This document shows, piece after piece, positions 5,930 through 33,872 of a stretch of 33,872 nt of DNA (positions are counted from its first letter, which is position 1; every line of letters begins with the position of its first letter). The DNA lies in IMG/VR virus record IMGVR_UViG_3300046804_006776, positions 1 through 33,872 of that record. One strand, written 5' to 3'. The notes under the pieces were generated by a model that was given only the letters and a program-made list of their open reading frames with translations, made no database searches and had not been told where the DNA came from. The DNA comes from a virus. The position numbers were made by a program, and so were the translations under genes.

Positions 5930-7164
5930 GACAGGGTCTTTTCTACAGTCTCTGCGTTTGTCCAATATTTGAATCCTACCTTAGCACTAGCTACATCTCC
6001 CGGCTCTAGTGTAGTAGTCAGAATCTTAAATGTACCTGTGCCGTTAGTTAACTTAACTTCTAGGCGATCAGGAATACCGCACACTTGCTCTACATATAAT
6101 TTCTTTATGCTAGGATGTGTGTGGACCTGTACAGTGACAGGATCCCCTGCGGCAACATCACCGTCTGGAACAACACACCATACTTCTTCAATTAGTTTAT
6201 AAACAGGCTCTTTTACAGGACCAGTCCAGGAAGCCATTTGACTAGCAATGCCGGCAGCATCCCATTCTGATGCGCTAGGACCCCTTAAAAATTCATGTGG
6301 GGTTTGACTATTCATATACAAATGCCAAGACAATTGAGAAACAGACGTAAATGTCTTGTCATGAATGTAGACCATTATTGGAGTAGGTACTCTGTTAGAT
6401 GTTCTTTGCCCTTGTATAACAGGATTAATTTCGACTCCTGATCCTTTATTTTCAGTTGTTCTTTGAAATACCGGAACAAACCTATTCATGATCCATACTT
6501 TGTAGTTCTTGATTATAGTTGAAGTAGTCAACAAACGAACTTTATTCAAATAATCAAATTGGCTGAAGTTAAAACCATTAGATTGCGGAATTTTGTTTTC
6601 TTCAACATCAAATACGTCACACTCTAACGCAAACAACGATTGATCTACACTAGAAGGTGATGTTCTAAAGTTTTGAATATTAGCAATGATCTGTCCGCGG
6701 TTGTATGTAACAGTTGATGTGCTTTCTGTTGTTGCATCGACTAGATAAACTAATTGTACAGATGCTGTTGAAATACTGTTCGGGTTCTCTGGGTCAATGA
6801 CTGTAACAGTTGGCTGATAAATGTATCCACTCCCAGTTGTTGTAACAATCACATCAGTGATTGTTCCTGTGGTAATAACTGGTGTTGCTGTAAATTGTGT
6901 GCCACCTGCTACATCTGGAGAACTAAAAACAAGATAGGTAGAAGTTGATAATTCAGTTCCCCCAGAATCTACCTGAACAGCCTGTATACCGTAGGCAGAC
7001 TCTATAACATCTTCTTCAACTCTAAATTCAAAATTGTTTTGTTGGATGTTGATATAGAATTTTTGATCCTGGAACCGATTCATATCTGGGCGATACGTGA
7101 ATAGGCGTTGTCCTCGATCTTGCGGGACAAATTCTACTGACTGAGCTGAAGTAATTACGGGCAT
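5926..7164 (-). CDS. virion-type structural protein (fibre/neck-like)
   Basis: A 412-residue, beta-rich, Thr/Ser/Val-rich protein without signal peptide. Residues around 110-125 read VIVTTTGSGYIYQPTVTV, matching the 'GSGY..PTVTV' module repeated in many T4-like phage virion and fibre proteins. The N-terminal part (VEFVPQDRGQRLFTYRPDMNRF) and the C-terminal beta-rich part (PDGDVAAGDPVTVQVHTHP) look like assembly domains. It follows the Asn-Cys protein by 15 bases and is preceded by an AAGGA about 12 bases from the ATG. It overlaps the next gene by 4 bases. I infer a structural role from composition and this module; the exact virion position is unknown. Confidence 0.6.
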   Translation of the reverse strand: MPVITSAQSVEFVPQDRGQRLFTYRPDMNRFQDQKFYINIQQNNFEFRVEEDVIESAYGIQAVQVDSGGTELSTSTYLVFSSPDVAGGTQFTATPVITTGTITDVIVTTTGSGYIYQPTVTVIDPENPNSISTASVQLVYLVDATTESTSTVTYNRGQIIANIQNFRTSPSSVDQSLFALECDVFDVEENKIPQSNGFNFSQFDYLNKVRLLTTSTIIKNYKVWIMNRFVPVFQRTTENKGSGVEINPVIQGQRTSNRVPTPIMVYIHDKTFTSVSQLSWHLYMNSQTPHEFLRGPSASEWDAAGIASQMASWTGPVKEPVYKLIEEVWCVVPDGDVAAGDPVTVQVHTHPSIKKLYVEQVCGIPDRLEVKLTNGTGTFKILTTTLEPGDVASAKVGFKYWTNAETVEKTLS

Positions 7165-7179
7165 TTAAGTATTAATTCC

Positions 7180-7467
7180 TTAACAATTACAGTTACAGTT
7201 GCAATTGTAGCAATTGACGTAATAGTAGTACATTGTCCATCCAGCACAGTTTACTAGATAAATCTTAGGATAACAGTTACCAAAGCTGATGTTACCACAG
7301 TTACCAGCGCCGCCGTTTAACCAACCGACGTTGTAAGAGTTACGGTTTACTTCGTTAAAAGTGTTACCATATAGGTAACCGGAGTTGTTTGATAACTGGC
7401 TGATGTATCCTTGTAAGTTAACACCGCTGTTAAAAACGATACCATCGTTATAGATATATGTTGACAT
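7180..7467 (-). CDS. Asn/Cys-rich small protein ending in (Asn-Cys) repeats; candidate modified-peptide precursor
   Basis: A 95-residue protein with extreme composition: 20 Asn, 13 Tyr and 8 Cys, and only four charged side chains (D8, E39, R42, K68). All eight cysteines (57, 65, 74, 86, 89, 91, 93, 95) are directly preceded by Asn, and the last eight residues are four Asn-Cys pairs after a YYYY run. The N-terminal half has no cysteine and could act as a leader; the C-terminal 40 residues would be a core. It is the first gene of a minus-strand operon that also holds a radical SAM/SPASM enzyme, an asparagine-synthetase-like enzyme and a B12-type radical SAM enzyme, which would suit a ribosomally made modified peptide. 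A disulfide-rich or metal-binding tail-tip protein is a serious alternative, since a virion-type gene follows at once. It is preceded by a TAAATA late-promoter word. Confidence 0.7.
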   Translation of the reverse strand: MSTYIYNDGIVFNSGVNLQGYISQLSNNSGYLYGNTFNEVNRNSYNVGWLNGGAGNCGNISFGNCYPKIYLVNCAGWTMYYYYVNCYNCNCNCNC

Positions 7468-9145: not shown

Positions 9146-9786
9146 GCGTTTATATTAAGACTTAAGAAAAATTGATAGTTCAACCCAGTAGCTCGAGCAA
9201 TGTGTACAATGCTAGTATCTATTAGGTATAGGCGCCCTGCTTCTATATTTTTAACAATATCAAAATTATTTGTATTGTTAGCAAACCCTAGCTCTATTGT
9301 ACTAGGATCTGTAGTTCCCCATAGCCTAAACCAAAGAGCTGGAAATGTTGTATCTATGTGAGGTTTAAATTCTCCGCCAGCTTCCCATTTAAGGATATTA
9401 GATCTTGTCCAATAGCCGTCAAACACTCGCAGTGGATCTAAAGAAGGAATGACCATAGCAGGAGTTAAAACTGTAAAATCAGTTTCCATGTGCGGACTAT
9501 TTGGAAAGTCTTCATTCCAGTGAGCTAAAGATCCTACAGTAGGTTCTATAGTGTTGTCCATGCTACCGTTAGAATTAACTAATGGAAGGCCGTATCTGGG
9601 CAGTTCTAAATACCGATTCCCCCAACGCTTAAATTCAAACTGCTCTATTTCTTTTAGAAACTGTTCGCAGTCTATTTGTATATCTAAAGGTTGTAACGGA
9701 ATAGGGTGATACTTTTTAAATTCATCCTCTTTTAGATAAGGCAAATTGATAGCTCTGTTTCTAAGTATATCTAGGTAATCAGACAT
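9112..9786 (-). CDS. HxD-type 2OG-Fe(II) oxygenase-like protein
   Basis: A 224-residue protein with a double-stranded beta-helix iron site. GGEFKPHIDTTFP gives H143 and D145, WFRLWGTTDPSTIELGF follows, and AGRLYLIDTSIVHIARATG gives H195. This is the HxD...H pattern of Asp/Asn-beta-hydroxylase-like and prolyl-hydroxylase-like enzymes. It shares a METDFTV block, preceded by a W-NE-PN segment, with 22672-23253, which holds KLETDFTVWNEELPN, suggesting common descent. It overlaps both neighbours (8 bases upstream, 34 downstream). It probably oxidises a peptide or small molecule made or bound by the operon partners; the substrate is unknown. Confidence 0.72.
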   Translation of the reverse strand: MSDYLDILRNRAINLPYLKEDEFKKYHPIPLQPLDIQIDCEQFLKEIEQFEFKRWGNRYLELPRYGLPLVNSNGSMDNTIEPTVGSLAHWNEDFPNSPHMETDFTVLTPAMVIPSLDPLRVFDGYWTRSNILKWEAGGEFKPHIDTTFPALWFRLWGTTDPSTIELGFANNTNNFDIVKNIEAGRLYLIDTSIVHIARATGLNYQFFLSLNINACSKLLSTILV

Positions 9787-10477
9787 CTTTCAAAGGTTTA
9801 CCAACAAACTCGTTATACACAATATCAGGCGGCCCGCTAGTAAATTCATTAACCCAATTACTAGACCAGTACCAACCTTTGCTCCCGTAATTAACTCCTA
9901 AAATTAATCGATCTCTATCTGTTGTATTTGGTAATACGCGATGCCTTAAGTAAGCAGGAAATAATATAAAGTCTCCGGTCTCAACCTGTATTTCATGTTC
10001 AAACTGATACTTTTGTTTATACTTAATAGGCTGTGCGGCTAGTACTTGGTCTAATGGATTTTCGAGTATAATATTACCTTGTTCTGGGCTAGCGTCGACA
10101 TATAATACGCCACTAAATGGAATACTCAAGTGTAGATGGCTTTCAATCCATCCTCCTTTAGGAGTTTTGTTAGCCCATGATTGTGCTACATACGGTGTAA
10201 GTCCGTCGTAATAGTCTAACTCCTTCCAATATTCTTCTCCACATTTGTTAGCAAACTCTATAAAATGATTTGTTTCTTGAGGGAACTTTTTATGAATAAA
10301 ATTCTCTTCGTGGTACGAGCACAAATTACCGTTAGCCATAAACTGTTGATTGTTTTTACTAACCGGGTCCCATAGATAGTTTAATTTTGGAAATAGATTT
10401 TCTTTAATATCATTTACTCGATTGTACTTGGTTTTGATTATTTTAATCGGGAATAAGTTAATTGTTTCGATGGTCAT
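9779..10477 (-). CDS. 2OG-Fe(II) oxygenase-like protein (PF13759-type)
   Basis: A 232-residue protein in the same class as 587-1261 and 15348-15968. SWANKTPKGGWIESHLHLSIP supplies H114 and H116. FSGVLYVDASPEQGNIILENP is the central strand pair, VETGDFILFPAYLRHRVLPN gives H179, and DRDRLILGVN holds the late arginines R188/R190. The N-terminal half (INLFPIKIIKTKY) is the usual beta-helix lead-in of these phage enzymes. It overlaps the methyltransferase upstream by 20 bases and the next oxygenase by 8, so the three are probably translated together. The substrate is unknown. Confidence 0.8.
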   Translation of the reverse strand: MTIETINLFPIKIIKTKYNRVNDIKENLFPKLNYLWDPVSKNNQQFMANGNLCSYHEENFIHKKFPQETNHFIEFANKCGEEYWKELDYYDGLTPYVAQSWANKTPKGGWIESHLHLSIPFSGVLYVDASPEQGNIILENPLDQVLAAQPIKYKQKYQFEHEIQVETGDFILFPAYLRHRVLPNTTDRDRLILGVNYGSKGWYWSSNWVNEFTSGPPDIVYNEFVGKPLKDV

Positions 10478-11126
10478 TGTTTTTTCCGTGTATTAATACT
10501 ATCTCTATAAAACTAGGATCTCCCTTAGTTGTAACAGTAAGTGATAGACCTGCGCTGTTTAGTTGTTCTGATATTTCTTTTATAGTAAACGCGGCCTTTA
10601 ATGAATTAGTAAAATCTCTTTGAAATGACAAGTTCTCATTTGGAGCAGTTGTGGATACAATACGATCTACTAGGTATTCCTCTGTCGGCCTTACTAAATC
10701 CATAATAAAAATATCACCCGTTGCTATTCTTTTAATAGTGTTCCAAAAATTTAAAGGATTATGCGAATGATGAAGTGTTCCAGACGATATAACACAATTA
10801 AATTGATCTGATATATCTGTAAAGTATGATTGACGCACATCAATTCTATGAGACAGTCCTGCTTGTTCTATATTCTCTCTTGCTAGATCAATCATAGCCT
10901 TGCTTGCGTCATAACCGACAAAAGATATATCTGGGTATTCATTACATAGTCTGATAAGATACTTTGCCGGACCGCATCCTAGGTCTGCGATAACACCGGT
11001 ACTTACATTACAGTAATCTTTGTACCAATAAACAAACGCATCCTCGGAGTATTTTCGTCTAGCATCACTAAAAGATGTTGCTTGTTGAAAATCTTCCATT
11101 ATTTCAGGTTCTGTTTGTCGTTCCAT
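10458..11126 (-). CDS. class I SAM-dependent methyltransferase
   Basis: A 222-residue protein with a Rossmann methyltransferase core. Motif I is GVIADLGCGPAKYL (DLGCG at 48-52), the acidic end of strand 2 lies in FVGYDASKAM, and CVISSGTLHHSHNPLNFW is motif IV with the HH often seen in small-molecule or lipid methyltransferases. GDIFIMDLVRP follows. It would transfer a methyl group to an unknown acceptor. It is the first gene of a four-gene minus-strand operon with two oxygenases and a GNAT-like protein, and has a TAAATA motif 27 bases upstream. Confidence 0.88.
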   Translation of the reverse strand: MERQTEPEIMEDFQQATSFSDARRKYSEDAFVYWYKDYCNVSTGVIADLGCGPAKYLIRLCNEYPDISFVGYDASKAMIDLARENIEQAGLSHRIDVRQSYFTDISDQFNCVISSGTLHHSHNPLNFWNTIKRIATGDIFIMDLVRPTEEYLVDRIVSTTAPNENLSFQRDFTNSLKAAFTIKEISEQLNSAGLSLTVTTKGDPSFIEIVLIHGKNNDHRNN

Positions 11127-16012: not shown

Positions 16013-17194
16013 ATGCTATTCATACATAAAACAACATCTCTTTGTGATCATTGCTATCGACACATTCCGGGAAATGTGATCGAAGAAAACAATCAAATTG
16101 TATTATTAAAACGATGTCCTGAGCACGGAGAAATGAAGTCTATTGTGGAGATTGATAAAAATTTTTATTATAATTTAACACATACGGCAATCCCTATCCA
16201 ACTTGGCCATATGCTGTTTGAAGTAACTGACAAGTGCCAATTAGAATGCCCGCATTGCTATCATTTACCGGATAACAAAGCATTAGACAAAGATATCGAA
16301 GAGATTATAAAACAAGTAAAATCATTTCCTAAATATTGTAGACCTTTAATAGCAGGAGCAGAGCCAACCCTTCGAAAAGATTTTGTTGAATTGTGTAGAC
16401 GACTCAAGGCCACTGGCTTAGAAGCATTTGGAGTATTGACTAACGGTGTTCGATTTGCTGATAAAGAATTTGCTCAGGCTGCCTGGGATGCTGGATTACA
16501 ACACGCAGTTGTAGGATTGAATCATTGGACCTATCAGGGAAAAAAGATACATGATAAGCAATTAAAAGCTATTAAAAACTTAACTGACATTGGATACTGG
16601 ATGGGGTATGTTGGATATACTATCGAAACTTTAGATCATATTCCTGATATATTAACAGAGATTGAAACTATAAAACATCCTCTCATATGGCAATATCGAA
16701 TAAGATGCGGAAGTTTTATAGGTAGGAGTGGAGATACAGAACGCAGTTACCTTAGTAGTCTAGTAAAAGCTGTTGAAAAATTTTATGATCAGCCATTAGA
16801 ATATGTAGGACCAGATGACAATCCATATCATTTTATGGTAAAGACTCCGACGGGAGTCGTTTTGAGATTAATACAGTGGCCGGATGTGACTAATATCGAT
16901 ATGGAAGAATTACGAACAGGTCCCTGGTCTACTTTTGTCGACGGTGCGCCGGCTACTAATTTTGTTCATCAAGTTATTACGCGAGATGCTTATAAAAACA
17001 TGAAACGCAGACCATTGGACATTTGTCCACCTAGATATTATTGTACACATCCTTCTACGTTAGAAGGTAGTCATTGGAAACATGATTGGAAAGGGCCAAC
17101 AGAAGTTACTGAATTAGATTGGACATATATTCAAGAGCCTATCCCTGCACCGAGATATTTTAGTTTAACGCCAACAAATGAAACTAGGTCCTAA
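16013..17194 (+). CDS. radical SAM protein of the COG1964/Tes-like type
   Basis: A 393-residue protein. A small N-terminal metal-site region (CDHCYRHIPG and KRCPEHGE: C11, C14, C35, H38) precedes the radical SAM core, as in the archaeal tetraether-synthase-like and related COG1964 enzymes. The cluster motif is FEVTDKCQLECPHCYHLPD (C75, C79, C82), with AGAEPTLR as a GGEPTLR variant. The C-terminal part holds further cysteines near CPPRYYCTHP. Family members join or modify unreactive carbons of lipids or other substrates. Here the partner is an overlapping QueC-like gene (17 bases), followed by a glycosyltransferase and an oxygenase. The substrate is unknown. Confidence 0.83.
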   Translation: MLFIHKTTSLCDHCYRHIPGNVIEENNQIVLLKRCPEHGEMKSIVEIDKNFYYNLTHTAIPIQLGHMLFEVTDKCQLECPHCYHLPDNKALDKDIEEIIKQVKSFPKYCRPLIAGAEPTLRKDFVELCRRLKATGLEAFGVLTNGVRFADKEFAQAAWDAGLQHAVVGLNHWTYQGKKIHDKQLKAIKNLTDIGYWMGYVGYTIETLDHIPDILTEIETIKHPLIWQYRIRCGSFIGRSGDTERSYLSSLVKAVEKFYDQPLEYVGPDDNPYHFMVKTPTGVVLRLIQWPDVTNIDMEELRTGPWSTFVDGAPATNFVHQVITRDAYKNMKRRPLDICPPRYYCTHPSTLEGSHWKHDWKGPTEVTELDWTYIQEPIPAPRYFSLTPTNETRS

Positions 17195-17972
17195 CAATAC
17201 AGAATGGAGCATCGAAACAGCGTTTCCTAAGACGGGTAAGATGGCTGTGTTGTTTAGCGGCGGAATTGATAGTACCTTAATTGCTAGTATTGCGATAGAC
17301 CTATATGGTAAAGACAATGTTATACTGTTGTGGTCAGATTCTATGTTCTGCGAGGATGACAGCAGAATAAAGCAGACAATTAAATTTAATGTAAAAACTG
17401 TATCTCAATACTTAGACATAGTCCCCTATTATGCTCCGGTTGACTATGAGTATTTTAAAGAAGATCCACTATTAGCACAAAGGAATGCGTGGATGGATGC
17501 TCAATGCAAATTAGGATTTGACCATATGGCAATGGGCATGACTGCTATGTTCTGGGATATAATGCCCCTACAATCATTTAGTCGAAAAGAAATATTAGAC
17601 TACTGTAATAAAGATAGAGAAAAGTATAGAGCATTAATAGAACAATGGCACATGGATACAGATACATATACAGAGCATTTAAAAATGAAAATACACCCCG
17701 ATGTATTTAATTGGCTCAAATCTAATCTAGGTCAACAGTTTCATTTTCCATTGGGCACATTACACAAAGATGAAATAATTGATTTATTTTATAAATTAGA
17801 TAAACAAGATTTACTTTACAAAACAATATCCTGTATGTCCGGAGAAGGTAAACATTGTGGAGAATGTTGGAACTGTCAAAATAGGTACGATGGACATGAT
17901 ATAAATGGGATTAACGATCAAACAATATATCAAAGCAACTTAATTAAAGAGCGCAGGGAAAAAATAAAATGA
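17178..17972 (+). CDS. QueC-like PP-loop ATP-dependent enzyme
   Basis: A 264-residue protein. The PP-loop is AVLFSGGIDSTLIA (SGGIDST at 27-33). The C-terminal end has the zinc site of QueC: SCMSGEGKHCGECWNCQNR, cysteines 219, 227, 230 and 233. QueC turns carboxy-deazaguanine into the nitrile preQ0 by two ATP-dependent steps. The middle of this protein (about 100-200) has an AFWDIMPLQSFSRKEI region and is longer than in typical QueC. No queD, queE, folE, DNA transglycosylase or other deazaguanine gene is in the window, so a diverged amide- or nitrile-forming enzyme with another carboxylate substrate is as likely. It overlaps both neighbours. Confidence 0.78.
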   Translation: MKLGPNNTEWSIETAFPKTGKMAVLFSGGIDSTLIASIAIDLYGKDNVILLWSDSMFCEDDSRIKQTIKFNVKTVSQYLDIVPYYAPVDYEYFKEDPLLAQRNAWMDAQCKLGFDHMAMGMTAMFWDIMPLQSFSRKEILDYCNKDREKYRALIEQWHMDTDTYTEHLKMKIHPDVFNWLKSNLGQQFHFPLGTLHKDEIIDLFYKLDKQDLLYKTISCMSGEGKHCGECWNCQNRYDGHDINGINDQTIYQSNLIKERREKIK

Positions 17973-20113: not shown

Positions 20114-20120
20114 TTGGCCT

Positions 20121-20126
20121 TAAATA
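20121..20126 (+). promoter_or_regulatory. T4-type late promoter word TAAATA (plus strand)
   Basis: GGCCTTAAATATGTCTATG: the motif ends at the A of one ATG and 5 bases before the next. By analogy with the 8367 and 16013 genes, the second ATG (20132) is then the likely start. Confidence 0.45.
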
Positions 20127-20131
20127 TGTCT

Positions 20132-20977
20132 ATGAACAGACGCGATTGGACAACTACTTTACCAAATAGTAATATACTAGATTTGTCTAGCAATATCTGT
20201 TACGACAAATATCTGAATATCGATACTGAACAAAACAATCAATGTTATCCAGATTCAAGTGAAGCATACAATTTGCTATCAAGTTATTATAACATAAGCC
20301 CGTATAATATAGCTATCGGATACGGCTCTTGCGAATTAATACTTCGAATACTTCAGGCGTATCGAGATTGGACTCTACATATTGTAACCCCAACATGGCA
20401 GCTGGCTGAACTCTATGCTTATCATATAGGAATGAAGCAACAGATAAATGCTGACATCTTATACATTGCTAACCCAAACGGCCTTACAGGACAAGCGTTG
20501 TCTGTTAAAGATATACTAGGAATGCTTCCGAATTATAAATTGGTAATTGTAGATGAAGCCTACGGAGACTTTAGCAACTGCTCAGTATTAAAGTATGCTA
20601 CAACTTCAGACAACTTGATTGTAGTAAAGACGTTGAGCAAAACTATTGCTTCTCCTGGTTTAAGATTTGGTTATTGTTTTTCCAACACAAAGATTATTAA
20701 ACACATACAAGATAGCCGACCGGGCTATGTAACAACTGGCGCAACAGTCAACGCATTGAAAAGGTTACTTCCTCATATTGACCTTCATGTTGCTCGTATG
20801 ATAGACACAAGAGATTACATAGAATCAAAGTATATGGTAGTACCGTCTGAAGGAAACTATGTTTTGTTTAGACAAGATCCGCACCTGCCTGTTGTTATGC
20901 GAGAAACTAATGGATTGTATCGAATGGCTCTAACAGATTTAACTACCTTTAAGGAATTGGAAAATGAATATCGATGA
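20132..20977 (+). CDS. PLP-dependent class I/II aminotransferase, HisC-like
   Basis: A protein of about 281 residues, short for histidinol-phosphate aminotransferases (about 350). Counting from the ATG at 20126, the features are NIAIGYGSCELILRI (cofactor-binding strand), TPTWQLAELYA, IANPNGLTG (N116), VIVDEAYGDF (D143), KTLSKTIASPGLRFGY with Schiff-base lysine K172, and R180. The start could be the ATG at 20126 or 20132; I use 20132 because of the promoter word at 20121-20126. It overlaps the next radical SAM gene by 14 bases. A role in making an amino sugar, amino alcohol or amino acid derivative for the operon is inference. Confidence 0.82.
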   Translation: MNRRDWTTTLPNSNILDLSSNICYDKYLNIDTEQNNQCYPDSSEAYNLLSSYYNISPYNIAIGYGSCELILRILQAYRDWTLHIVTPTWQLAELYAYHIGMKQQINADILYIANPNGLTGQALSVKDILGMLPNYKLVIVDEAYGDFSNCSVLKYATTSDNLIVVKTLSKTIASPGLRFGYCFSNTKIIKHIQDSRPGYVTTGATVNALKRLLPHIDLHVARMIDTRDYIESKYMVVPSEGNYVLFRQDPHLPVVMRETNGLYRMALTDLTTFKELENEYR

Positions 20978-21782
20978 GCTAAGGACATTACAAGAACAAG
21001 GTGTAAAGGACCTATGGTCTACATTGCGTAGTGTAGAAATAAATCCAACTGAACTGTGTAATAGAACGTGCTCATTCTGCCCTAGAACCGACCCTAAACT
21101 TTATAAAAATCGTAAGCAACACATTGATCCTAGCCTATGTATGCTAATAGGATCGCAATTACAAAACTTTACAGGTAGGATTGGGTTTGTGGGGTTTGGT
21201 GAGCCATTACTTCATCCAAACATTGTAGAGTGTGTTACTAACGTTAGAACAGGATGTCCTACAGCACAATGGATTGAAATTAATACTAACGGAGATGTAC
21301 TAACTAGAGATCTAGCTGTCGAACTAGCTGCCGCAGGATGTACAAATATTACAATTAGTATGTATGATAAAGACAATACAGATTATTTTACTGAAATGCT
21401 CGATGGAGTCAATGTTCAAATGATATTGCGACATCATTACAACACAGGTACAATGGGATTGATTAATAGAATTAATATCATTAGAAAAGATGGTAACATA
21501 CTAGAGGTTAATCGCCCTTGTTACAGGCCTTTCTATAAAATGTTTATAGACTGGAATGGAGACTTTTTATTGTGCGAGCAGGACTGGGGCAAAGTTACTA
21601 AGCGATATAATATATATTCGACTAATATTGTCGATTTTTGGTTAGATAAACTAAATCGATATAGGATAGAACTAATGGAAGGAAATCGAGTGTTAAGTCC
21701 TTGTGATAAGTGTGATATAAACGGAACCAAACACGGACAAGATAGTTTTAATATATTTTATGATCAACTTACTACAAAATAA
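20964..21782 (+). CDS. radical SAM protein with SPASM-type C-terminus
   Basis: A 272-residue protein, compact. The cluster motif is SVEINPTELCNRTCSFCPRTD (C32, C36, C39). GFVGFGEPLLHP is the GGEPLLHP-type SAM motif, and IEINTNGDVL and ITISMYDKD follow. A reduced C-terminal cysteine set (RPCYRPF, LLCEQDWG, SPCDKCDI) looks like a SPASM or twitch domain holding one auxiliary cluster. Enzymes of this type often modify peptides. It sits between an aminotransferase and the unknown cassette at 21760-22688, overlapping both. Confidence 0.85.
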   Translation: MNIDELRTLQEQGVKDLWSTLRSVEINPTELCNRTCSFCPRTDPKLYKNRKQHIDPSLCMLIGSQLQNFTGRIGFVGFGEPLLHPNIVECVTNVRTGCPTAQWIEINTNGDVLTRDLAVELAAAGCTNITISMYDKDNTDYFTEMLDGVNVQMILRHHYNTGTMGLINRINIIRKDGNILEVNRPCYRPFYKMFIDWNGDFLLCEQDWGKVTKRYNIYSTNIVDFWLDKLNRYRIELMEGNRVLSPCDKCDINGTKHGQDSFNIFYDQLTTK

Positions 21783-22506
21783 AATTGAATACTGGACAGA
21801 AGACCGTATAGACAATGAGTTCTATAAGGGCATTCCTACGCATACTGATAGAAACATGAAGTATGCTATTGAGCAAGACTCTACTGGATTTTATATAACA
21901 CAGCGAGACTCTGCTACCTACTTTAATCTAACAAATGGGATAATACATCGAATTGACTGTCGATGGACTTACACAGACATCAAGTGTAACGAAATGCTTT
22001 ACGACAGGAGTATCAAATACAACGACTTTAATATAGATATTCCGTTAGACAGTAAGTTTTTAATGATTAATGGTAAAGAGTATTGGTATTCCGTAGTACA
22101 ACGTCCTATGAACACATTAGGCATTGATTGTAATATGGACATAGGTAGTAAACTTATCACAGTTGATTATATTAAAGAGTGGGTTGATCAAAGTCTTATT
22201 GTACTACAACACATCAAGGAAGTTGCTAGACTATGCGACGGGGGGATGCCTGCCAATGGAGTATTGATTACAAATCGTGTTAGATTAATAGACGACATAT
22301 ATTCTTGGAAAACGTTTAAACGATGGCAGCGAGATATTCCCTCTATGATTAAAAAGAGTATATGTACATTACAGGCATTTTATGTATCAGCGGCTTACCT
22401 ACAAATAGGCGGAGAAGTAACTCCTAAACTAATACAAGAAGGACAGCCAAACGTAGAAGAAATATTAATCTATGCGAGCAAGAAATGGAATACACTGATC
22501 AAGTAA
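21760..22506 (+). CDS. unknown protein A1 of a duplicated two-gene cassette
   Basis: A 248-residue protein with no recognised domain. It aligns with 27019-27705 along much of its length. Shared features are an N-terminal LL-K--W segment, GFYITQRDSATYFNLTNG against GCYQIGTDHIIYHNFTDG, a strand pair (IDIPLDSKFLMINGKEYW against VTLPIKRDIVEINGESWEF), and a helical C-terminal half. A MPANGVLITN-RVRLIDD stretch faintly recalls the N...D site of phosphotransferase-type kinases, but no nucleotide loop is seen, so this is not a call. It starts inside the radical SAM gene and overlaps the next small gene by 22 bases. Confidence 0.7.
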   Translation: MINLLQNKIEYWTEDRIDNEFYKGIPTHTDRNMKYAIEQDSTGFYITQRDSATYFNLTNGIIHRIDCRWTYTDIKCNEMLYDRSIKYNDFNIDIPLDSKFLMINGKEYWYSVVQRPMNTLGIDCNMDIGSKLITVDYIKEWVDQSLIVLQHIKEVARLCDGGMPANGVLITNRVRLIDDIYSWKTFKRWQRDIPSMIKKSICTLQAFYVSAAYLQIGGEVTPKLIQEGQPNVEEILIYASKKWNTLIK

Positions 22507-22688
22507 TACACATAAAAGTATACAATGAACTTAATGAGTTGATTTATGAAATTGACTGCCCATCGCTTGCTCTCATGAGCATGTATATGCTATGGTACTG
22601 TCCTACTACTACAAATAGACTCAAATTAACTTGGCCTAACGGAAGAACAATAACAACTGCGCTATCTAATCCTAATTGTTGGGGATAG
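22485..22688 (+). CDS. unknown small protein A2 of a duplicated two-gene cassette
   Basis: A 67-residue protein paralogous to 27702-27887. Both share a beta-hairpin start (HIKVYNELNELIYEIDCP against KLEIYKNGQLVKTFDCP), an invariant DCP, an AL-S-Y segment, a PF/PT turn and a C-terminal strand with IT. Neither has a signal peptide or membrane segment. Always downstream of and overlapping the larger partner gene, it may form a complex with it, or be a small carrier or substrate for the nearby radical SAM enzyme. The C-terminus NPNCWG is not conserved in the paralogue. Its 3' end overlaps the convergent oxygenase gene by 17 bases. Confidence 0.65.
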   Translation: MEYTDQVIHIKVYNELNELIYEIDCPSLALMSMYMLWYCPTTTNRLKLTWPNGRTITTALSNPNCWG

Positions 22689-22689
22689 C
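22661..22689. terminator. possible bidirectional hairpin at a convergent overlap
   Basis: GCTATC at 22661-22666 pairs with GATAGC at 22684-22689, with an inner CC/GG pairing and a T/A-rich loop. It sits exactly where two convergent genes end and could act in both directions. There is no clear T run, so this is weak. Confidence 0.25.
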
Positions 22690-23253
22690 ATTTATAACCA
22701 GATGTATTCGTTCAGTGTTGCCTGAGTTATAAACGAAATGATGTACAGTTGTATCAATTTTATAAAAATGACCATCTGCCGGAATATGATATCCTCTAAC
22801 TTGATAATCTTCTAAAGGTCCTACTGTTGTCGGAGTACAGATAAAACATCCTATATTAGTAGTAATTGCTAAATGGTATCTTTGCTCTGAATCTTGATGC
22901 ATCATAAGTCCAGTCTTTGGCATTAATCGCATTATTCTTACTCTTCCGGGAGTAAAGTTATGTTCCTTAGCAAGACTGTTGACTAATTCTATTAGATAGT
23001 TTGGCAACTCTTCATTCCATACTGTAAAGTCTGTTTCAAGTTTACCTGCTTGATTATCTTTGCCGCCGCCGCTAGCGTCTAACCATTTATTAGTGGCCGA
23101 TTGACGATGTGTTAATCCTATTTGATTTACAATGCTACAATCTTCTACAGATCCGTTAGGCCAGGGACGTATTGATAAAATACGTTCTATGCATTCTTTA
23201 ATGATTTCTAAGTTTGCTGTGTTATTCAGCTTTTTTATAAATTGATTTTCCAT
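22672..23253 (-). CDS. aspartyl/asparaginyl beta-hydroxylase-like 2OG-Fe(II) oxygenase
   Basis: A 193-residue protein. VRIMRLMPKTGLMMHQDSEQRYHLAI (written here in parts: RIMRLMPKTG, then MMHQDSEQRYH) gives H119 and D121. CFICTP and GYHIPADGHFYKIDTTVHH give the second strand set and H171/H172. NTERIHLVINAI gives R182. This is the Asp/Asn beta-hydroxylase (PF05118) pattern, in which the HxD is followed by R-H on the next strand. It is the last gene of a four-gene operon with three radical SAM enzymes, overlapping the upstream one by 32 bases. Peptide or protein side-chain hydroxylation is a reasonable inference. Confidence 0.83.
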   Translation of the reverse strand: MENQFIKKLNNTANLEIIKECIERILSIRPWPNGSVEDCSIVNQIGLTHRQSATNKWLDASGGGKDNQAGKLETDFTVWNEELPNYLIELVNSLAKEHNFTPGRVRIMRLMPKTGLMMHQDSEQRYHLAITTNIGCFICTPTTVGPLEDYQVRGYHIPADGHFYKIDTTVHHFVYNSGNTERIHLVINAIPNN

Positions 23254-24460
23254 CTATCTTGTTTAATGAGTAAATTCTATCTATTTTAGTTTCGCCGCCA
23301 CACATACTAGCACAAAAGGCTAACTTGCCGTTTGCTACAGTATCTATTTCCCAGGACTTAGCAAACACATTATCTAAATGTCCTGCGTCTAATATTTCTC
23401 GTAAGGTGTGTCTATTTAAATCAAAGTTATCCCATCCGTAATCATTCATATGTTTATGTAGTTGTAATGATTGGGTGTCTTTATATACTCCGTTTAGATG
23501 TGTTCCTACGTAACAGCAAGGCATTAATCTACCAAAATTATCTACAAAGATTTCCTTACCTGTATTACGCTTTGCTTTACATTGTATTGAACAGGCGTTT
23601 GCTTTACTATGATCTTCTTTTGCTATCTGAGTGTATACATATTCAACTCTAGTTGTGTATCCTGGATCGATCTCTTTGCTCTTAAGTTTGTTATAAACTG
23701 ATAGTTCCATTCCGAACCATACGGGCTTAGATCCTATAGGATTTTCCAAATTTCTATACTTTGGTATTGTAGGAGCTTCGATAGCATATTCAAGTACTCC
23801 TTCTCTGTTCATAGCAGGCATCGGTCGTAGGTATGTGCCGTCATCTACCCCTAGTGCTTTCTTAGGAATAAACATTTTAAATCCTGCTTGCTCGGAGTAT
23901 GCCTTGGCTTCGTCCACTTGATGTTCGTTATGCTTGAATATCAAATATTCCCAAACAGCAATTCCACCCCCTTTAATAAAGGCAGTAAAGTTGCTCTCTA
24001 GTGCTTTCCATTTAACATTACGTCTATATATATGATTAGTATCTTCTAGTCCGTCGATGCTGAATATTAACCTCCATCGACTATCGGCACTAGATCGTTT
24101 GCTAAACAACTGTCCAAACTTATACCACCAGTCTGGATTACGCATACCGCCGTTTGTATTAATATGGACTATTGTTTTACTGTCGATAGATTGTATGTAC
24201 TCGCATATCTCGTACAGGTCTTTGGCCATACCCGGATCACCATGTACTCCGCAGAACAAAAACATATTACATTGTTTTACTACATCTTCTGGAAAGTACT
24301 GTTTAAACTTGTCTATTGTAATTTGGCCTATCTCTAAATCAGGCCTTATTAATGGACTATTATGGTAATATCGCACACACATAGGACAAGCGGCATTACA
24401 CGCATTAGTTAATTCTACGTGTATTTGCGACAGTTCTGTGTTATTCCAAAATGCTGTCAT
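23222..24460 (-). CDS. radical SAM protein with C-terminal SPASM-like cysteines
   Basis: A 412-residue protein. The cluster motif HVELTNACNAACPMCVRY gives C21, C25 and C28. MFLFCGVHGDPGMAKD replaces the usual GGEPL with a GDPG form, and IVHINTNGGMRN and LIFSIDGLEDTN follow. The C-terminal third has ANACSIQCKAK, GRLMPCCYVGTH and AFCASMCGG, a SPASM-type cysteine set. It overlaps the twitch-type radical SAM gene upstream by 4 bases (ATGA) and the beta-hydroxylase downstream by 32. The substrate is unknown. Confidence 0.85.
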   Translation of the reverse strand: MTAFWNNTELSQIHVELTNACNAACPMCVRYYHNSPLIRPDLEIGQITIDKFKQYFPEDVVKQCNMFLFCGVHGDPGMAKDLYEICEYIQSIDSKTIVHINTNGGMRNPDWWYKFGQLFSKRSSADSRWRLIFSIDGLEDTNHIYRRNVKWKALESNFTAFIKGGGIAVWEYLIFKHNEHQVDEAKAYSEQAGFKMFIPKKALGVDDGTYLRPMPAMNREGVLEYAIEAPTIPKYRNLENPIGSKPVWFGMELSVYNKLKSKEIDPGYTTRVEYVYTQIAKEDHSKANACSIQCKAKRNTGKEIFVDNFGRLMPCCYVGTHLNGVYKDTQSLQLHKHMNDYGWDNFDLNRHTLREILDAGHLDNVFAKSWEIDTVANGKLAFCASMCGGETKIDRIYSLNKIDGKSIYKKAE

Positions 24461-25623
24461 TTAGTATACCCTATAATCTTAGCAAATTCTGGAAATGTAG
24501 TAGCATAATCCTCATTGCGATAATTGTCGGTTAGTCTAATTTCGTTCATTAATGTGTCCCACTGCTCAGTATTAGGAGTACCGTTTTCTATGAACTTAAT
24601 AATGCCCGATAATTGATTAGAATGTGACTTAGGAATAGTGTTTAGTTTGTCTATAACTATTTTCTTTACATTATCAGGCATACCACTAATATTAAAATGC
24701 TCGGGCCAATGAACTAAGTTTAAGTAAAGTGTTAATGATCCGCGAAATCTAGCATTAAAATAATTAATAATCTCGTCAAGATAAAAAATATTAAGAGCAC
24801 TGAGCGTAACACACCAAAACGGGCGCATATTACTATACGTCACTTCTGGGCGGCTCATATTAACAAGGACATCATTCCACACAGCTGGATGTCTCATATA
24901 TTCAAACCTTGACCCAACACCGTCAATACTAAATCCTAAATTAACTTGCTTGAAATGTTTCCATACTTCAGTTTCTACAGGCCAAACAGTTCCATTGGTG
25001 GCATAATTCAATGTCATGTCTTTGGCATACCCTAATTCAACTGTACGTTTTAAAACACTCCACATTTTTTTACTGAGCAGAGGTTCTCCTCCGTAAAAAT
25101 CAATTTTCTTAATAGTACTTAAACTATCTTCTAATTCTTTCCAAAACGTACTATCGTCGTCATAGCTATTAGAATAAGTTCTTATTTTTTTACGATATTC
25201 TTCTTTTGATACGACATTTACATATTTTGTATCATATAGCTCTTGAGCCCATTGGCTGCTTGAATGTGGAGCACAAGTTCTACATTTAATGTTACAAGTG
25301 TTGCCCATGTTAAGTTCAACATAGACTAATCCTTGTTGGTCTCTAGACCAATTGCTATTGTCTCTTATTCGTTTACTGTCTCGCCCAGCTTCTTCTTCTT
25401 TCCAGCATCGATTACACCCCGGGTGCTTTATTCCTTGAGATAACGCAGACCTTAACTCAACAAACTCCGATCCATTAAAATGGTCTAAGAGAGGAACCTC
25501 CCCTAATTTTGATTCTTTCCCGTTAGGAGTTCGAGTAAACATACAACAAGGTCGTGTTTTTCCATCATTTGATGAACTGATAGCATGGAACGCATTTATA
25601 CACCATGTATTAGAATTGGTCAT
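24457..25623 (-). CDS. radical SAM protein with N-terminal twitch domain
   Basis: A 388-residue protein. The N-terminal 90 residues carry the cysteine/histidine pattern of the N-twitch radical SAM group: WCINAFHAIS (C8, H13), RPCCMF (C26, C27) and HPGCNRCWKEEEAG (C70, C73) before a D-S-R stretch. The radical SAM core follows with VELNMGNTCNIKCRTCAPHSS (C110, C114, C117), IDFYGGEPLLS and LGFSIDGVG. The substrate is unknown for this group. It overlaps the next twitch-type gene upstream by 14 bases and the SPASM gene downstream by 4. Confidence 0.87.
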   Translation of the reverse strand: MTNSNTWCINAFHAISSSNDGKTRPCCMFTRTPNGKESKLGEVPLLDHFNGSEFVELRSALSQGIKHPGCNRCWKEEEAGRDSKRIRDNSNWSRDQQGLVYVELNMGNTCNIKCRTCAPHSSSQWAQELYDTKYVNVVSKEEYRKKIRTYSNSYDDDSTFWKELEDSLSTIKKIDFYGGEPLLSKKMWSVLKRTVELGYAKDMTLNYATNGTVWPVETEVWKHFKQVNLGFSIDGVGSRFEYMRHPAVWNDVLVNMSRPEVTYSNMRPFWCVTLSALNIFYLDEIINYFNARFRGSLTLYLNLVHWPEHFNISGMPDNVKKIVIDKLNTIPKSHSNQLSGIIKFIENGTPNTEQWDTLMNEIRLTDNYRNEDYATTFPEFAKIIGYTK

Positions 25624-26962
25624 ACGTATCCTTACACAATTGATAGAAGTCTTTATATTCAGGGAATGTTTCTAATAAATTAGTACCTAAGCGACGGTCG
25701 TTCTCTGTGAAGAATACATAAAAGTCTCTGCGTCCCCTACGAATACGTTCCGGATCGACTGGATTCTTACGCATATACTCAGTTACACGTTTAAACTTAA
25801 CTATCTCAGACTGTTGGAACCACTCGCTGTTGTCTTCCATAAACTTAACAGTATCATCCATGTATACCATAAAGTCTGGCGTAAGGATGTTAATCATCCA
25901 ATGTGGAGGATCCTTCAAGTATGGAATGTCTAAATGGAACGCATCAAACCCATAAGCCTTACGCCATTCGATTACTTTCTCTAGTAACTGTTTATAGTTT
26001 GTAACGCATAGTACATTAAAGGTACACATAAAGTGAATCTTCTTACCCACTTCGACTACCTTGAGCATATTACGTTCCCAATGCTCACAATTAAGACCTG
26101 TACGCATATACTCTGCTTGCGGTCCCCAGCTGTCTATGCTAGTAAATGTATTAAACTTCTTGATCTTCTTTTCTACAATTAGTTTGCGTACAGTCTCAAT
26201 TACACGATCAACACGATCAAACGATACGCCTAGGTTACTGTTAAGGCTAATCTCTAAGTCAGGCGCTGGCTCTTTGTCTAACAAATCAAAGAAGTCCATT
26301 GCTCCTTTATTCATTAAAGGCTCGCCTCCTGTGATGCGTAGTGTGTGTAGGTCCTTGCGTAGGTCTGGCCACCACTTCCAGAACGAATCGATATATGGAT
26401 TTTCGTCCTTTGGGCCGTAGTATGTTCCGTGCTCTAAGAAGCTAATGCTGTATTGCGGATGTGTAATATCGTAGTCGCCGTGCTTCTTTACTTCTTCCAT
26501 CCACATGGTGCTTGCTTGCGGGCCGCAATAGCCACAACGATAGTTACAGTTATTACCGAAACTAACTTCTAAATATTTTGGATTGATGGGAGCATTCCAA
26601 GGCATCTTTGCTAGTTCTTCGATAGCAGGGTCTGCCCACGTACTACCATTGTGTAAGATACGATCGCTAGCATGTTCACCTGGTAGGTCCTCGATGTTCC
26701 AACAATAGTAACATTCGCTAGGACGGTGTCCATTTAACATTTGCTTGCGCTGTTCCATCTTGTGTGCGGTATTGTGTAGAGCACTGGGATTGTTAGCAAT
26801 TTCGTCTAACTGGATGTGATGAGGTTTCGGATGATAACAACTATGGTTATCTCCTGTATGTAGGTACAACGTTTGATGTAGCCATTTCATAGTACAGTAA
26901 CCCGGACCTATTTGGTTTAACCGATCTCGTATGTTTCTGTAGAATTGAATTTGTTGTTCCAT
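25610..26962 (-). CDS. radical SAM protein with N-terminal twitch domain
   Basis: A 450-residue protein, first gene of the three-radical-SAM operon. The N-terminal twitch pattern is GYCTMKWLHQ (C23, H29), HSCYHP (C42, H44) and SECYYCWNIE (C84, C87). The radical SAM core motif is VSFGNNCNYRCGYCGPQA (C139, C143, C146), with LRITGGEPLMNKG, ISLNSNLG and FTSIDSWG. It is a distant paralogue of the following gene. The ATG has a TAAATA late-promoter word only 4 bases upstream, giving a leaderless-type start. Confidence 0.87.
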   Translation of the reverse strand: MEQQIQFYRNIRDRLNQIGPGYCTMKWLHQTLYLHTGDNHSCYHPKPHHIQLDEIANNPSALHNTAHKMEQRKQMLNGHRPSECYYCWNIEDLPGEHASDRILHNGSTWADPAIEELAKMPWNAPINPKYLEVSFGNNCNYRCGYCGPQASTMWMEEVKKHGDYDITHPQYSISFLEHGTYYGPKDENPYIDSFWKWWPDLRKDLHTLRITGGEPLMNKGAMDFFDLLDKEPAPDLEISLNSNLGVSFDRVDRVIETVRKLIVEKKIKKFNTFTSIDSWGPQAEYMRTGLNCEHWERNMLKVVEVGKKIHFMCTFNVLCVTNYKQLLEKVIEWRKAYGFDAFHLDIPYLKDPPHWMINILTPDFMVYMDDTVKFMEDNSEWFQQSEIVKFKRVTEYMRKNPVDPERIRRGRRDFYVFFTENDRRLGTNLLETFPEYKDFYQLCKDTYDQF

Positions 26963-26966
26963 AGTG

Positions 26967-26972
26967 TATTTA
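26967..26972 (-). promoter_or_regulatory. T4-type late promoter word TAAATA (minus strand)
   Basis: The minus strand reads CTTTAAATACACTATG: the motif ends 4 bases before the ATG of the first radical SAM gene in its operon. Confidence 0.55.
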
Positions 26973-27005
26973 AAGCTCTAGTTAATGTCTGTAAAATTTT
27001 GTGAC

Positions 27006-27011
27006 TAAATA
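27006..27011 (+). promoter_or_regulatory. T4-type late promoter word TAAATA (plus strand)
   Basis: GTGACTAAATATTGTATCATG: the motif ends 7 bases before the ATG at 27019 of the second cassette. Confidence 0.5.
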
Positions 27012-27018
27012 TTGTATC

Positions 27019-27705
27019 ATGCTAGATCAACTACTTTCTAAACTACAAAATACAAGTGACCAGACTATTCGTGACTGGTGGGGTCCCGAAATTTCAAACG
27101 AGTTCCCTGACATTATAGACTCTTTAGAATGGGATAGCAATGGATGTTATCAAATAGGAACTGATCACATTATATATCACAATTTTACTGATGGAAGAAT
27201 TCAGAAATTAGTAAAGAATTACGATAAAAACAGTTGGCATTTGTATCAACGATTATATCTAAAAGCGGCATACACTAAATCTGTTAGAGTTACATTACCT
27301 ATTAAGAGAGATATAGTTGAGATAAACGGAGAATCTTGGGAATTTACAGATGCTATGCGTCCGGGAAACTACAATGGAGAAACTATGAAAAAAGAATTAG
27401 TTGTAAATTCTGATGACGATATTGCTTATATTGCTAATCAATATTATAATCTTTTCCAGTTATTAATCGAAGTTTCAAATGAAGAAAACTCTAAAATTCC
27501 TTTTGTCTCTTTTAATCACATGCACTTCGACGATGTTGGGTGCTATTTTACTTTAGACAGCGCAGAATGGAAAATAAGTCCGTCTGAATCAATACAACGG
27601 TTGTTAGAACTAATTGATTCTGTGCCTAGTCTAATAGGAACTACTGAACAGCAATTCACAAAATTTAGGAATTTGATGAAAGAAAAATTAGGATCATTCT
27701 TATGA
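27019..27705 (+). CDS. unknown protein B1 of a duplicated two-gene cassette
   Basis: A 228-residue paralogue of 21760-22506. The N-terminus MLDQLLSKLQ, the GCYQIGTDHIIYHNFTDG block, TLPIKRDIVEINGESWEF and a helical C-terminal region correspond between the two. Two differences: it has its own late promoter instead of sitting inside a radical SAM gene, and the FNHMHFDDVGCYFTLDSAEW region replaces the ITN-RVRLIDD region of the other copy. The ATG at 27019 is preferred over an in-frame GTG at 27001 because the promoter word spans the bases between. It overlaps the next gene as ATGA. Function unknown. Confidence 0.7.
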   Translation: MLDQLLSKLQNTSDQTIRDWWGPEISNEFPDIIDSLEWDSNGCYQIGTDHIIYHNFTDGRIQKLVKNYDKNSWHLYQRLYLKAAYTKSVRVTLPIKRDIVEINGESWEFTDAMRPGNYNGETMKKELVVNSDDDIAYIANQYYNLFQLLIEVSNEENSKIPFVSFNHMHFDDVGCYFTLDSAEWKISPSESIQRLLELIDSVPSLIGTTEQQFTKFRNLMKEKLGSFL

Positions 27706-27887
27706 AAGTAGAAGACTTTTCTTATAAATTAGAGATTTACAAAAATGGTCAGTTAGTAAAAACCTTTGATTGTCCCTATGCGCTAATTAGTCCTTATGTT
27801 GAAAGATTAATGTATACTTCTTCTCCGTTTACTGTAAAAGTTATTCTTAATTCAGAAATACAAATTACCTTACCCCAATCAACATAA
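27702..27887 (+). CDS. unknown small protein B2 of a duplicated two-gene cassette
   Basis: A 61-residue paralogue of 22485-22688, sharing the IYKNGQL hairpin, DCPYALISPY and a C-terminal strand with IT. No signal peptide, membrane segment or metal site is visible. The start overlaps the stop of the large partner (ATGA), so the two are surely co-translated. The end overlaps the convergent methyltransferase-like gene by 23 bases. Function unknown. Confidence 0.65.
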   Translation: MKVEDFSYKLEIYKNGQLVKTFDCPYALISPYVERLMYTSSPFTVKVILNSEIQITLPQST

Positions 27888-28410
27888 ACCTTGTAAATTT
27901 CCATTCCGGATAGACAAATTCTTTACTACCTTCAAAGGCATATTCCGTTAATGGGTATGCCTTTTTAAATTCCTCAATTGACTCAGTTGTGATATGATGA
28001 TCGTTGTGCGGCATATTGTTACCTTGTAATACAACACGAGTGCCCTTAGTTATACGATTAAACCAGTCCATACTCTCAAAATGTTCTGTGCTGGTGTTAA
28101 TAATTAAGTCGCCGTACTGGCCTTCATAATTATTACAATCCTGTGTAAAGGCTTTGAACTTCCATTCTTGCCAAACCCAGTTCTCGTTGATCATGTCGGC
28201 AACTGCTTGACATTCTGGATCTATGTCCAAACTACAAATCTTATCAACGTTAAACTTGCCTCTACTTAATAGCAGGAATGCTGTAATGCCATACCATCCG
28301 CCGTAGATGTAAGTAAGACTAGATTGCCATTGTAACTTTTCAAGTTCTTCGCAAAGCCATATCTTACTTCCTATTTGACCGCTACTAAATGCGTCTTTAT
28401 CGATTAACAT
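27865..28410 (-). CDS. methyltransferase-like (Rossmann) protein
   Basis: A 181-residue protein. SLTYIYGGWYGITAFLLL is a degenerate motif I with a glycine-rich loop, ICSLDIDPECQAVAD the acidic strand 2, and GDLIINTSTEHFESMDWF motif IV. EHFESMDW is typical of phage class I methyltransferase-like proteins. The altered glycine loop leaves activity open. It is the last gene of the long minus-strand operon and follows four glycosyltransferase-like genes, so an O-methylation of a glycan is a reasonable guess. Confidence 0.65.
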   Translation of the reverse strand: MLIDKDAFSSGQIGSKIWLCEELEKLQWQSSLTYIYGGWYGITAFLLLSRGKFNVDKICSLDIDPECQAVADMINENWVWQEWKFKAFTQDCNNYEGQYGDLIINTSTEHFESMDWFNRITKGTRVVLQGNNMPHNDHHITTESIEEFKKAYPLTEYAFEGSKEFVYPEWKFTRFMLIGVR

Positions 28411-33545: not shown

Positions 33546-33872
33546 TTAAACCCTAAAACTTTCCCCACACCCGCAACGATCTCGTTCATTTGGATTCTTA
33601 AAATCAAATCCTTCATTTAACCCGTTGCGTACCCAGTCAATAATCATCCCGTTTAGGTAAACTTGACTCTTGGCATCTACCAATACTACAAAGTCTTTTT
33701 GGGCATAATTTGTAATACCCACTTCATGGGTGTATTCGTCTACATATTCTAACACATAGGCAAGCCCCGAGCAACCGGTTGTGCGAACTCCTATCCGAAT
33801 TCCTACACCTTTACCACGTTTTTTTAATTGTCCAACTATCTTCTTATAGGCTTGCTCTGTGAATGTAATCAT
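33546..33872 (-). CDS. iscA: IscA/HesB A-type Fe-S cluster carrier
   Basis: A 108-residue protein of normal family length. It has ITFTEQAYKKI at the N-terminus, IRIGVRTTGCSGLAY with C34, a FVVLVDAKSQVYLNG strand and the C-terminal FKNPNERDRCGCGESF with C100 and C102. These three cysteines are the Fe-S ligands of A-type carriers, which deliver clusters to apo-enzymes. The ATG lies at the last bases of the window, so the promoter is outside. HesB/IscA genes have been reported as auxiliary metabolic genes in marine phages. Here the gene sits beside eight radical SAM enzymes that each need a [4Fe-4S] cluster. Confidence 0.92.
   Translation of the reverse strand: MITFTEQAYKKIVGQLKKRGKGVGIRIGVRTTGCSGLAYVLEYVDEYTHEVGITNYAQKDFVVLVDAKSQVYLNGMIIDWVRNGLNEGFDFKNPNERDRCGCGESFRV

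Follow-up and report, generated by a model that had tools for sequence, protein, structure and literature searches.

A two-gene cassette found twice in a T4-like phage, with a large protein predicted to be kinase-like

Two copies of a large-small gene cassette

We analysed the IMG/VR virus record IMGVR_UViG_3300046804_006776, a stretch of 33,872 bases referred to here as the window. It comes from a T4-like phage and contains, in two copies, a cassette in which a gene for a large protein is followed by a gene for a small one. Both copies lie on the + strand, pair A at 21760-22688 and pair B at 27019-27887 (Table 1). An earlier note on this DNA, made from the sequence alone, had described two such pairs in the same gene order with coupled starts, and the open reading frames confirm it. 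The large and small genes overlap by 22 bases in A and 4 in B, and by 4, 8 and 4 bases in the related pairs of three other viral contigs (L003, L004 and L006, respectively); the small-gene starts behind these lengths were picked by us from the coordinates. In both cassettes the small gene also overlaps the 3′ end of a convergent gene. We placed the start of the pair B large gene at ATG 27019, rather than in the longer frame from GTG 27001, because a TAAATA box sits inside that extension.

The large proteins of the two pairs are related. P0001 and P0003 were 26% identical over 125 amino acids (aa) in a single BLASTP comparison (E 4e-7). A profile built from three outside relatives only, with both window copies omitted, ranked the B copy first (E 1.8e-34) and the A copy second (E 3.2e-12) of the 238 frames of the window, with the third at 0.39. 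This window-free profile rules out chance or artefact as the source of the likeness and upholds the proposal that the cassettes are paralogous. The large protein of pair A is closer to its L003 relative (29% identity) than to that of pair B (22%), so the duplication is not recent.

Kinship between the small proteins is probable, resting mainly on their position, size and predicted strand-helix pattern. A window-free small-protein profile ranked B first of the 238 frames at only E 0.011 and left A outside the top five. With small B as the sole query, A came second as the best non-self frame (E 0.19), and with small A as the sole query, B came third (E 0.24). The likeness drawn by the earlier note keeps a weak profile signal, size and place in its favour but is undetectable by BLASTP (E 1.5). 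The “DCP” and “AL-S-Y” features that it had singled out are common to the two window copies only and do not characterise the family; the DCP site reads YLP, DVP or YIP elsewhere, with proline alone invariant.

The gene layout likewise agrees with the description of one pair directly behind a radical S-adenosylmethionine (SAM) gene and the other divergent from a radical SAM run. The last 23 bases of a radical SAM/SPASM gene are shared with the large gene of pair A, which together with its small gene closes a + strand run headed by an aminotransferase-like gene (ATG 20132). Pair B faces away from a run of three radical SAM genes (25610, 24457 and 23222), which score 27.5-28.6 bits against a Pfam radical SAM cut-off of 29.5 and have agreeing radical SAM PHROG matches. 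MT181, on the other side of pair B, has no match in Pfam or PHROG.

Table 1. Positions of the cassette genes, their neighbours and the promoter boxes in the window
Feature	Positions	Strand	Remarks
Pair A large protein P0001, 248 aa	21760-22506	+	Predicted kinase-fold family homologue, after the fold of relative L004
Pair A small protein P0002, 67 aa	22485-22688	+	Putative beta-beta-alpha-beta-beta by analogy; weak sequence homology
Pair B large protein P0003, 228 aa	27019-27705	+	Predicted kinase-fold family without catalytic residues, after the L004 homologue
Pair B small protein P0004, 61 aa	27702-27887	+	Start within an ATGA overlap with the large gene
Radical SAM/SPASM gene directly 5′ of pair A	20964-21782	+	Pfam
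Radical SAM gene R450 (450 aa), left flank of pair B	25610-26962	-	Conserved; 81-83% identical in pair-bearing relatives
MT181, 181 aa, right flank of pair B	27865-28410	-	Conserved; convergent with the small gene, overlapping its end
TAAATA, T4-type late-promoter box	27006-27011	+	7 bases before the pair B start ATG 27019
TTTAAATA	26967-26974	-	Ahead of the divergent radical SAM gene R450, 4 bases from its start
CTTAAATA	20119-20126	+	Ahead of the aminotransferase-like gene heading the pair A run, 5 bases from its ATG 20132

Distribution, divergence and late-promoter boxes

We fetched loci with the radical SAM protein R450 as query, taking the best 80 of 152 viral relatives. The pair is present in five of these loci, exactly those whose radical SAM protein is 81-83% identical to that of the window, and absent from the other 75, where the best identity is 71%. 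A scan with the family alignment yielded a sixth pair-bearing contig, in which the radical SAM gene adjoining the pair is 81% identical. Relatives occupy the slot of pair B in all six of the other IMG/VR contigs with the closest radical SAM version (81-83%). They represent three alleles (L004 and L005; L006, L027 and L085/L117; L003); the window's own brings the number of distinct alleles in this slot to four, and pair A adds a fifth family member. The large and small profiles matched the same six of 50 whole records, at one place each, so the neighbourhood check bears out the expectation that homologues of both genes occur together. The radical SAM/SPASM gene beside pair A has no relative at E 1e-4 in the 80 loci.

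When loci were found via the other flank gene, six of 29 (the same contigs) held the pair and 23 showed different neighbours of the flank gene, which marks the region as hypervariable. In pelagimyophages, a hypervariable region around tail-fibre genes is described as carrying glycosyltransferases as well as added cassettes of radical SAM genes (PMC7029224); that of the window is comparable, a likeness of region only that does not assign the window to this group. Judged by protein identity, no other gene compared in the locus diverges as fast as those of the cassette. Flanking proteins show 52-83% identity between the window and L003, against 27% for the large and 20% for the small protein; between L004 and L006 the corresponding values are 76-89%, 46% and 40%.

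Two further features were seen in the related contigs. The contig of L003 carries, in locus L109, an extra gene between the flank gene and the small gene (6536-7324, +) that occurs only there and by its sequence is probably a methyltransferase. In L117 the second radical SAM gene is in two frames (9650-10522 and 10583-10819), and in L118, of identical layout, it is a single frame; the split reflects a frameshift or an assembly error.

Beyond these contigs the family was not found. A blastn search of the 7 kb pair region against 50,697 phage records gave no pair region, and the large proteins P0001, P0003, L004 and L006 had no tblastn match in the same records. Searches of viral contigs returned nothing for P0003 alone or P0001 alone, and only its own contig for L003. 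A pattern search of bacterial genomes gave 61 stretches, none confirmed as family. A profile search was negative in all 199 genomes of one bacterial order, a set without a positive control that was picked solely because the contig of one metagenome-assembled genome (MAG) carried the radical SAM gene. None of 24 further records with the flank gene or the radical SAM gene held the pair, again without a positive control. The sole bacterial-genome match of the radical SAM protein (65% identical) was L102 (CANHSL010000125.1), a 5.4 kb contig of a Flavobacteriales MAG; it is possibly a phage contig binned with the MAG and at best a weak host hint. Pfam, PHROGs, NCBIfam and PADLOC gave no family match for the cassette proteins, in agreement with the earlier note, which had recognised none; a sequence search of the PDB gave chance rows only for them, and Rfam found nothing in the window.

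All four slot-B alleles have a T4-type late-promoter box (TATAAATA-like) ahead of the large gene. Its TAAATA stands 7 bases from the start in the window, 5 in L004 and L006, where the box reads ATAAATA, and 21 in L003, where GAGGAA stands between box and start. The T4 late consensus is given as spanning -13 to -6 by the -13/-12 numbering (PMC2988020), and the late box of cyanophages as NATAAATA (PMC2984593). With T4 geometry and a 5-base gap, transcription would begin at the first base of the ATG itself, and by this analogy the close-set boxes imply what would be leaderless late messages.

TAAATA ends 4-5 bases before the ATG at 10 of 49 scored starts in L003, L004 and L006 (nine at exactly 5), starts that are not independent because the three loci are related. 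At internal ATGs of these loci it is found 3-9 bases upstream in none of 307. The other 75 loci have it at 4-5 bases in three of 542 starts, and mostly 15-34 bases upstream. In the window, the count of TAAATA followed after 3 to 6 bases by ATG was 5 against 4.93 in shuffles, showing no excess, so it is the placing of the boxes at gene starts, together with their conservation, and not the raw count that carries the promoter claim. In L005 the TAAATA-ATG count was 4 against 0.60 expected, a value reached in one of 200 shuffles. In the window, boxes close to an ATG, often at a distance of only 4-7 bases, are those at 8354, 16001, 20119, 26974 (-) and 27006.

Predicted structures and catalytic residues

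The large protein of L004, 30% identical to P0003 and 26% to P0001, was the only one modelled with AlphaFold2, from a five-row alignment of L004 and four relatives. The model has a mean predicted local distance difference test (pLDDT) score of 86.4 (85.2-86.4 over the five models) and a predicted template modelling (pTM) score of 0.82. Strands 44-49, 52-57 and 62-68 are followed by helix 72-88, strands 95-104 and 107-115, helix 133-160, short strands 174-177 and 180-183, and helices 194-211 and 218-236; the order of elements in the model is that of a small protein kinase. In a Foldseek search of the PDB, all 50 of the matches listed were kinases (best E 9e-4, probability up to 0.99), with E ≤ 0.001 in one of 1,622 matches. 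VIA-align gave its best Z, 9.5, for WaaP (6dfl; 177 residues aligned, 3.8 Å) and YabT (6g4j; 188 aligned, 4.5 Å), with 213 of 999 chains at Z of at least 8 and kinase-fold proteins making up all 50 of the matches listed. Named viral structure matches were also mostly kinases. A two-lobed kinase fold is thus predicted, for the L004 homologue only, and on the strength of this model we consider a kinase-like fold of the large protein likely; shared ancestry with kinases is unproven.

Several results weigh against this assignment. Alignment with hhalign to four bacterial kinase-like proteins gave a probability of 0.2, with 0.1 for an unrelated family control, and Pfam yields no kinase profile for the large protein. 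The Foldseek TM-scores are only 0.2-0.4 with a root-mean-square deviation of about 8-19 Å, which indicates a loose superposition, and the VIA-align Z of 9.5 barely exceeds 7-8, the tool’s stated typical best for models without a clear match. Finally, the fold rests on a single member modelled from five sequences.

We then read the catalytic landmarks from the strands of the L004 model and carried them to an alignment of five members at about 20-46% identity, in which places may be off by a residue or two. The model has a beta1-beta2 turn of two residues in place of the glycine loop. The five divergent members have in common neither a beta-3 lysine nor an aspartate after beta 8, at the place of the Asp-Phe-Gly (DFG) motif. 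Across L004, P0003, P0001, L003 and L006, the place of the catalytic aspartate reads D/F/A/A/E and that of the asparagine Q/H/N/N/H. Nowhere does the alignment show an invariant Asp, Glu, His or Asn; the residues that are invariant are for the most part of a structural kind (L, W, G, P, I, Y), together with an Arg after strand 5 and a Lys in the last helix. Because the glycine loop, beta-3 lysine, catalytic aspartate and DFG aspartate are not conserved, the large protein would be a pseudokinase, incapable of ATP binding or phosphotransfer; a kinase outline without catalytic residues suggests a binding role.

The L004 small-protein model is a beta-beta-alpha-beta-beta arrangement with a pLDDT of 68; the recognition element of ribosomally synthesised and post-translationally modified peptides, a radical SAM partner, has a PqqD-like winged-helix fold and goes with a precursor peptide. 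Among solved structures the model comes closest to a designed protein (Z 4.7, 3.1 Å over 50 aligned residues); the T4 antitoxin Dmd follows at Z 4.5 (2.8 Å over 49), then RB69 Dmd (Z 4.2) and AcrF9 (Z 3.6). As judged from this model, the Dmd and AcrF9 likenesses are within noise and confer no Dmd identity, and a comparison with viral structures had no hit at E ≤ 0.001. In the small proteins, Met 1 and a single Pro are the only invariant residues, and there is no invariant Cys or Ser.

Candidate roles and known systems

The overlapping genes, constant pairing and joint divergence argue for a two-protein complex. Fast divergence at a fixed slot, combined with a narrow distribution, suggests a partner that itself keeps changing, as in conflicts between phage and host or between phages. 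We tentatively propose that the cassette encodes a late-expressed, non-enzymatic binding complex used in such conflict, which we regard as possible though short of probable. The proposal builds on the observed pairing, slot, late motif and divergence, and takes the fold from a model. The kinase-like large protein, its ATP-binding and phosphotransfer residues lost, would work by binding, and the small protein would most likely be complexed with it. The module would be turned on late, by its own T4-type late promoter in pair B or at the tail of a late operon in pair A, and the complex may engage a fast-changing target of the host or of a rival phage; it might, for instance, occupy a kinase-like factor or mimic one. 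A more specific version, which we hold to be doubtful, is that a dead kinase-fold protein and its dedicated small partner, expressed late from a fixed slot and diversified in an arms race of their own, disarm through binding a kinase-like factor of the host or a rival phage, with the second copy providing a second specificity.

The conflict role draws only on divergence and restricted distribution, and late expression would equally suit a virion or assembly role. The pair could then be a late structural or tail-fibre-assembly protein with a small chaperone or partner, the kinase-like outline being incidental. The T4-type late promoter would fit, as would the place of the cassette among the glycosyltransferase, oxygenase and radical SAM genes of a hypervariable late region, much like the tail-fibre region described for pelagimyophages (PMC7029224). 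However, neither protein matches structural PHROGs, and absence from 75 of 80 related loci would be unexpected for a needed virion part, making this explanation unlikely, if by no means negligible. The recognition/substrate pair, carrier and toxin-antitoxin roles suggested by the earlier note found no support, the large protein being predicted to be kinase-like without catalytic residues. A kinase-type toxin-antitoxin system like HipT/HipS, with an active kinase restrained by a small inhibitor, would account for the kinase-like fold, the overlapping genes, the small protein diverging in parallel and the weak likeness of its model to Dmd. Against it, the catalytic residues are not conserved, the small gene lies downstream whereas the two small genes of HipBST are described as upstream (PMC9325769), designed proteins match the small model as well as Dmd does, and PADLOC gives no match; we judge it very unlikely. 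An active atypical phosphotransferase or nucleotidyl-type transferase using non-classical residues is conceivable insofar as kinase-fold proteins with other chemistry exist, such as SidJ (PMC6858067), and L004 and L006 retain an acidic residue (Asp or Glu) close to the catalytic site, with NFD close to where DFG would be, but with no acidic residue invariant in the five members such an enzyme is highly improbable.

A role as helper of the adjoining radical SAM enzymes, the large protein binding substrate or enzyme and the small one serving as recognition element or carrier, is quite unlikely. Both window copies touch a radical SAM gene, and pair A stands behind radical SAM/SPASM and aminotransferase-like genes on the same strand. 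However, a hand count over 42 genes, the pairs excluded, finds a radical SAM gene at 13 of the 41 junctions between genes, so that both pairs would adjoin one by chance in about 10% of cases. The link proposed by the earlier note therefore stands as an adjacency of both pairs but is weak, and is quite possibly a coincidence. The neighbour of pair B in the relatives is not independent evidence, because it is one inherited arrangement. In addition, the same radical SAM family is kept without the pair in 75 loci, and the small protein lacks an invariant Cys or Ser.

The window has eight radical SAM genes in total, within 1749-26962, and in this 34 kb fragment they lie among oxygenase-like, glycosyltransferase and methyltransferase genes. 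One radical SAM protein (16013-17194) has an HMPTM N-terminal zinc ribbon (PF23545, E 4e-16) and is followed by a QueC-like protein (17178-17972); an IscA-like iron-sulphur protein is encoded at 33546-33872. A 95-aa protein at 7180-7467 (-) ends in YVNCYNCNCNCNC and adjoins a protein with weak virion-structural PHROG matches. It has no Pfam or PHROG family and no relative in the 80 loci, and is a possible modification substrate or structural peptide.

If the predicted fold and the pairing are true, the cassette represents a phage protein family invisible to sequence libraries and revealed by structure prediction only, and its allelic diversity at one fixed slot is ready material for target finding. 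Among the open-licence papers listed for this topic, none pointed to a phage-encoded pseudokinase in its title or the start of its abstract. WaaP/Kdo kinases, YabT, APH and eukaryote-like kinases resemble the phage protein in the predicted two-lobed order (strands, helix C, strands 4-5, hinge, helix E, beta 7-8 and C-terminal helices), whereas the phage protein has no sequence similarity to them, does not conserve the ATP, catalytic and DFG residues and is followed by a small partner gene.

Dmd of T4 and RB69 (PDB 5hy3, 5i8j) shares with the small protein a length of about 60 aa, a similar strand and helix arrangement and an origin in T4-like phages. The small protein has no sequence match to it, however, and its structural match to Dmd is no better than its match to designed proteins. 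We know of no Dmd that is paired with a kinase-fold protein. HipBST also combines a kinase-fold protein and a small protein encoded by adjacent genes. As described, HipT is an active kinase with a P-loop, HipS (102 aa) is encoded upstream and there is a third gene, hipB (PMC9325769), whereas the phage cassette has the small gene downstream in five of five distinct pairs and its large protein would lack the catalytic residues.

Kinase folds free of catalysis have already been described in eukaryotes and poxviruses (PMC9175622). Among them, B12 of vaccinia virus is a viral pseudokinase that acts by binding the cellular kinase VRK1 (PMC9175622). B12 is a protein of a eukaryotic virus, whereas the phage protein has no sequence link to kinases and comes with a second protein from an overlapping gene; what the two would have in common, on our interpretation of the phage protein, is a virus-encoded kinase fold that dispenses with catalysis and works by binding.

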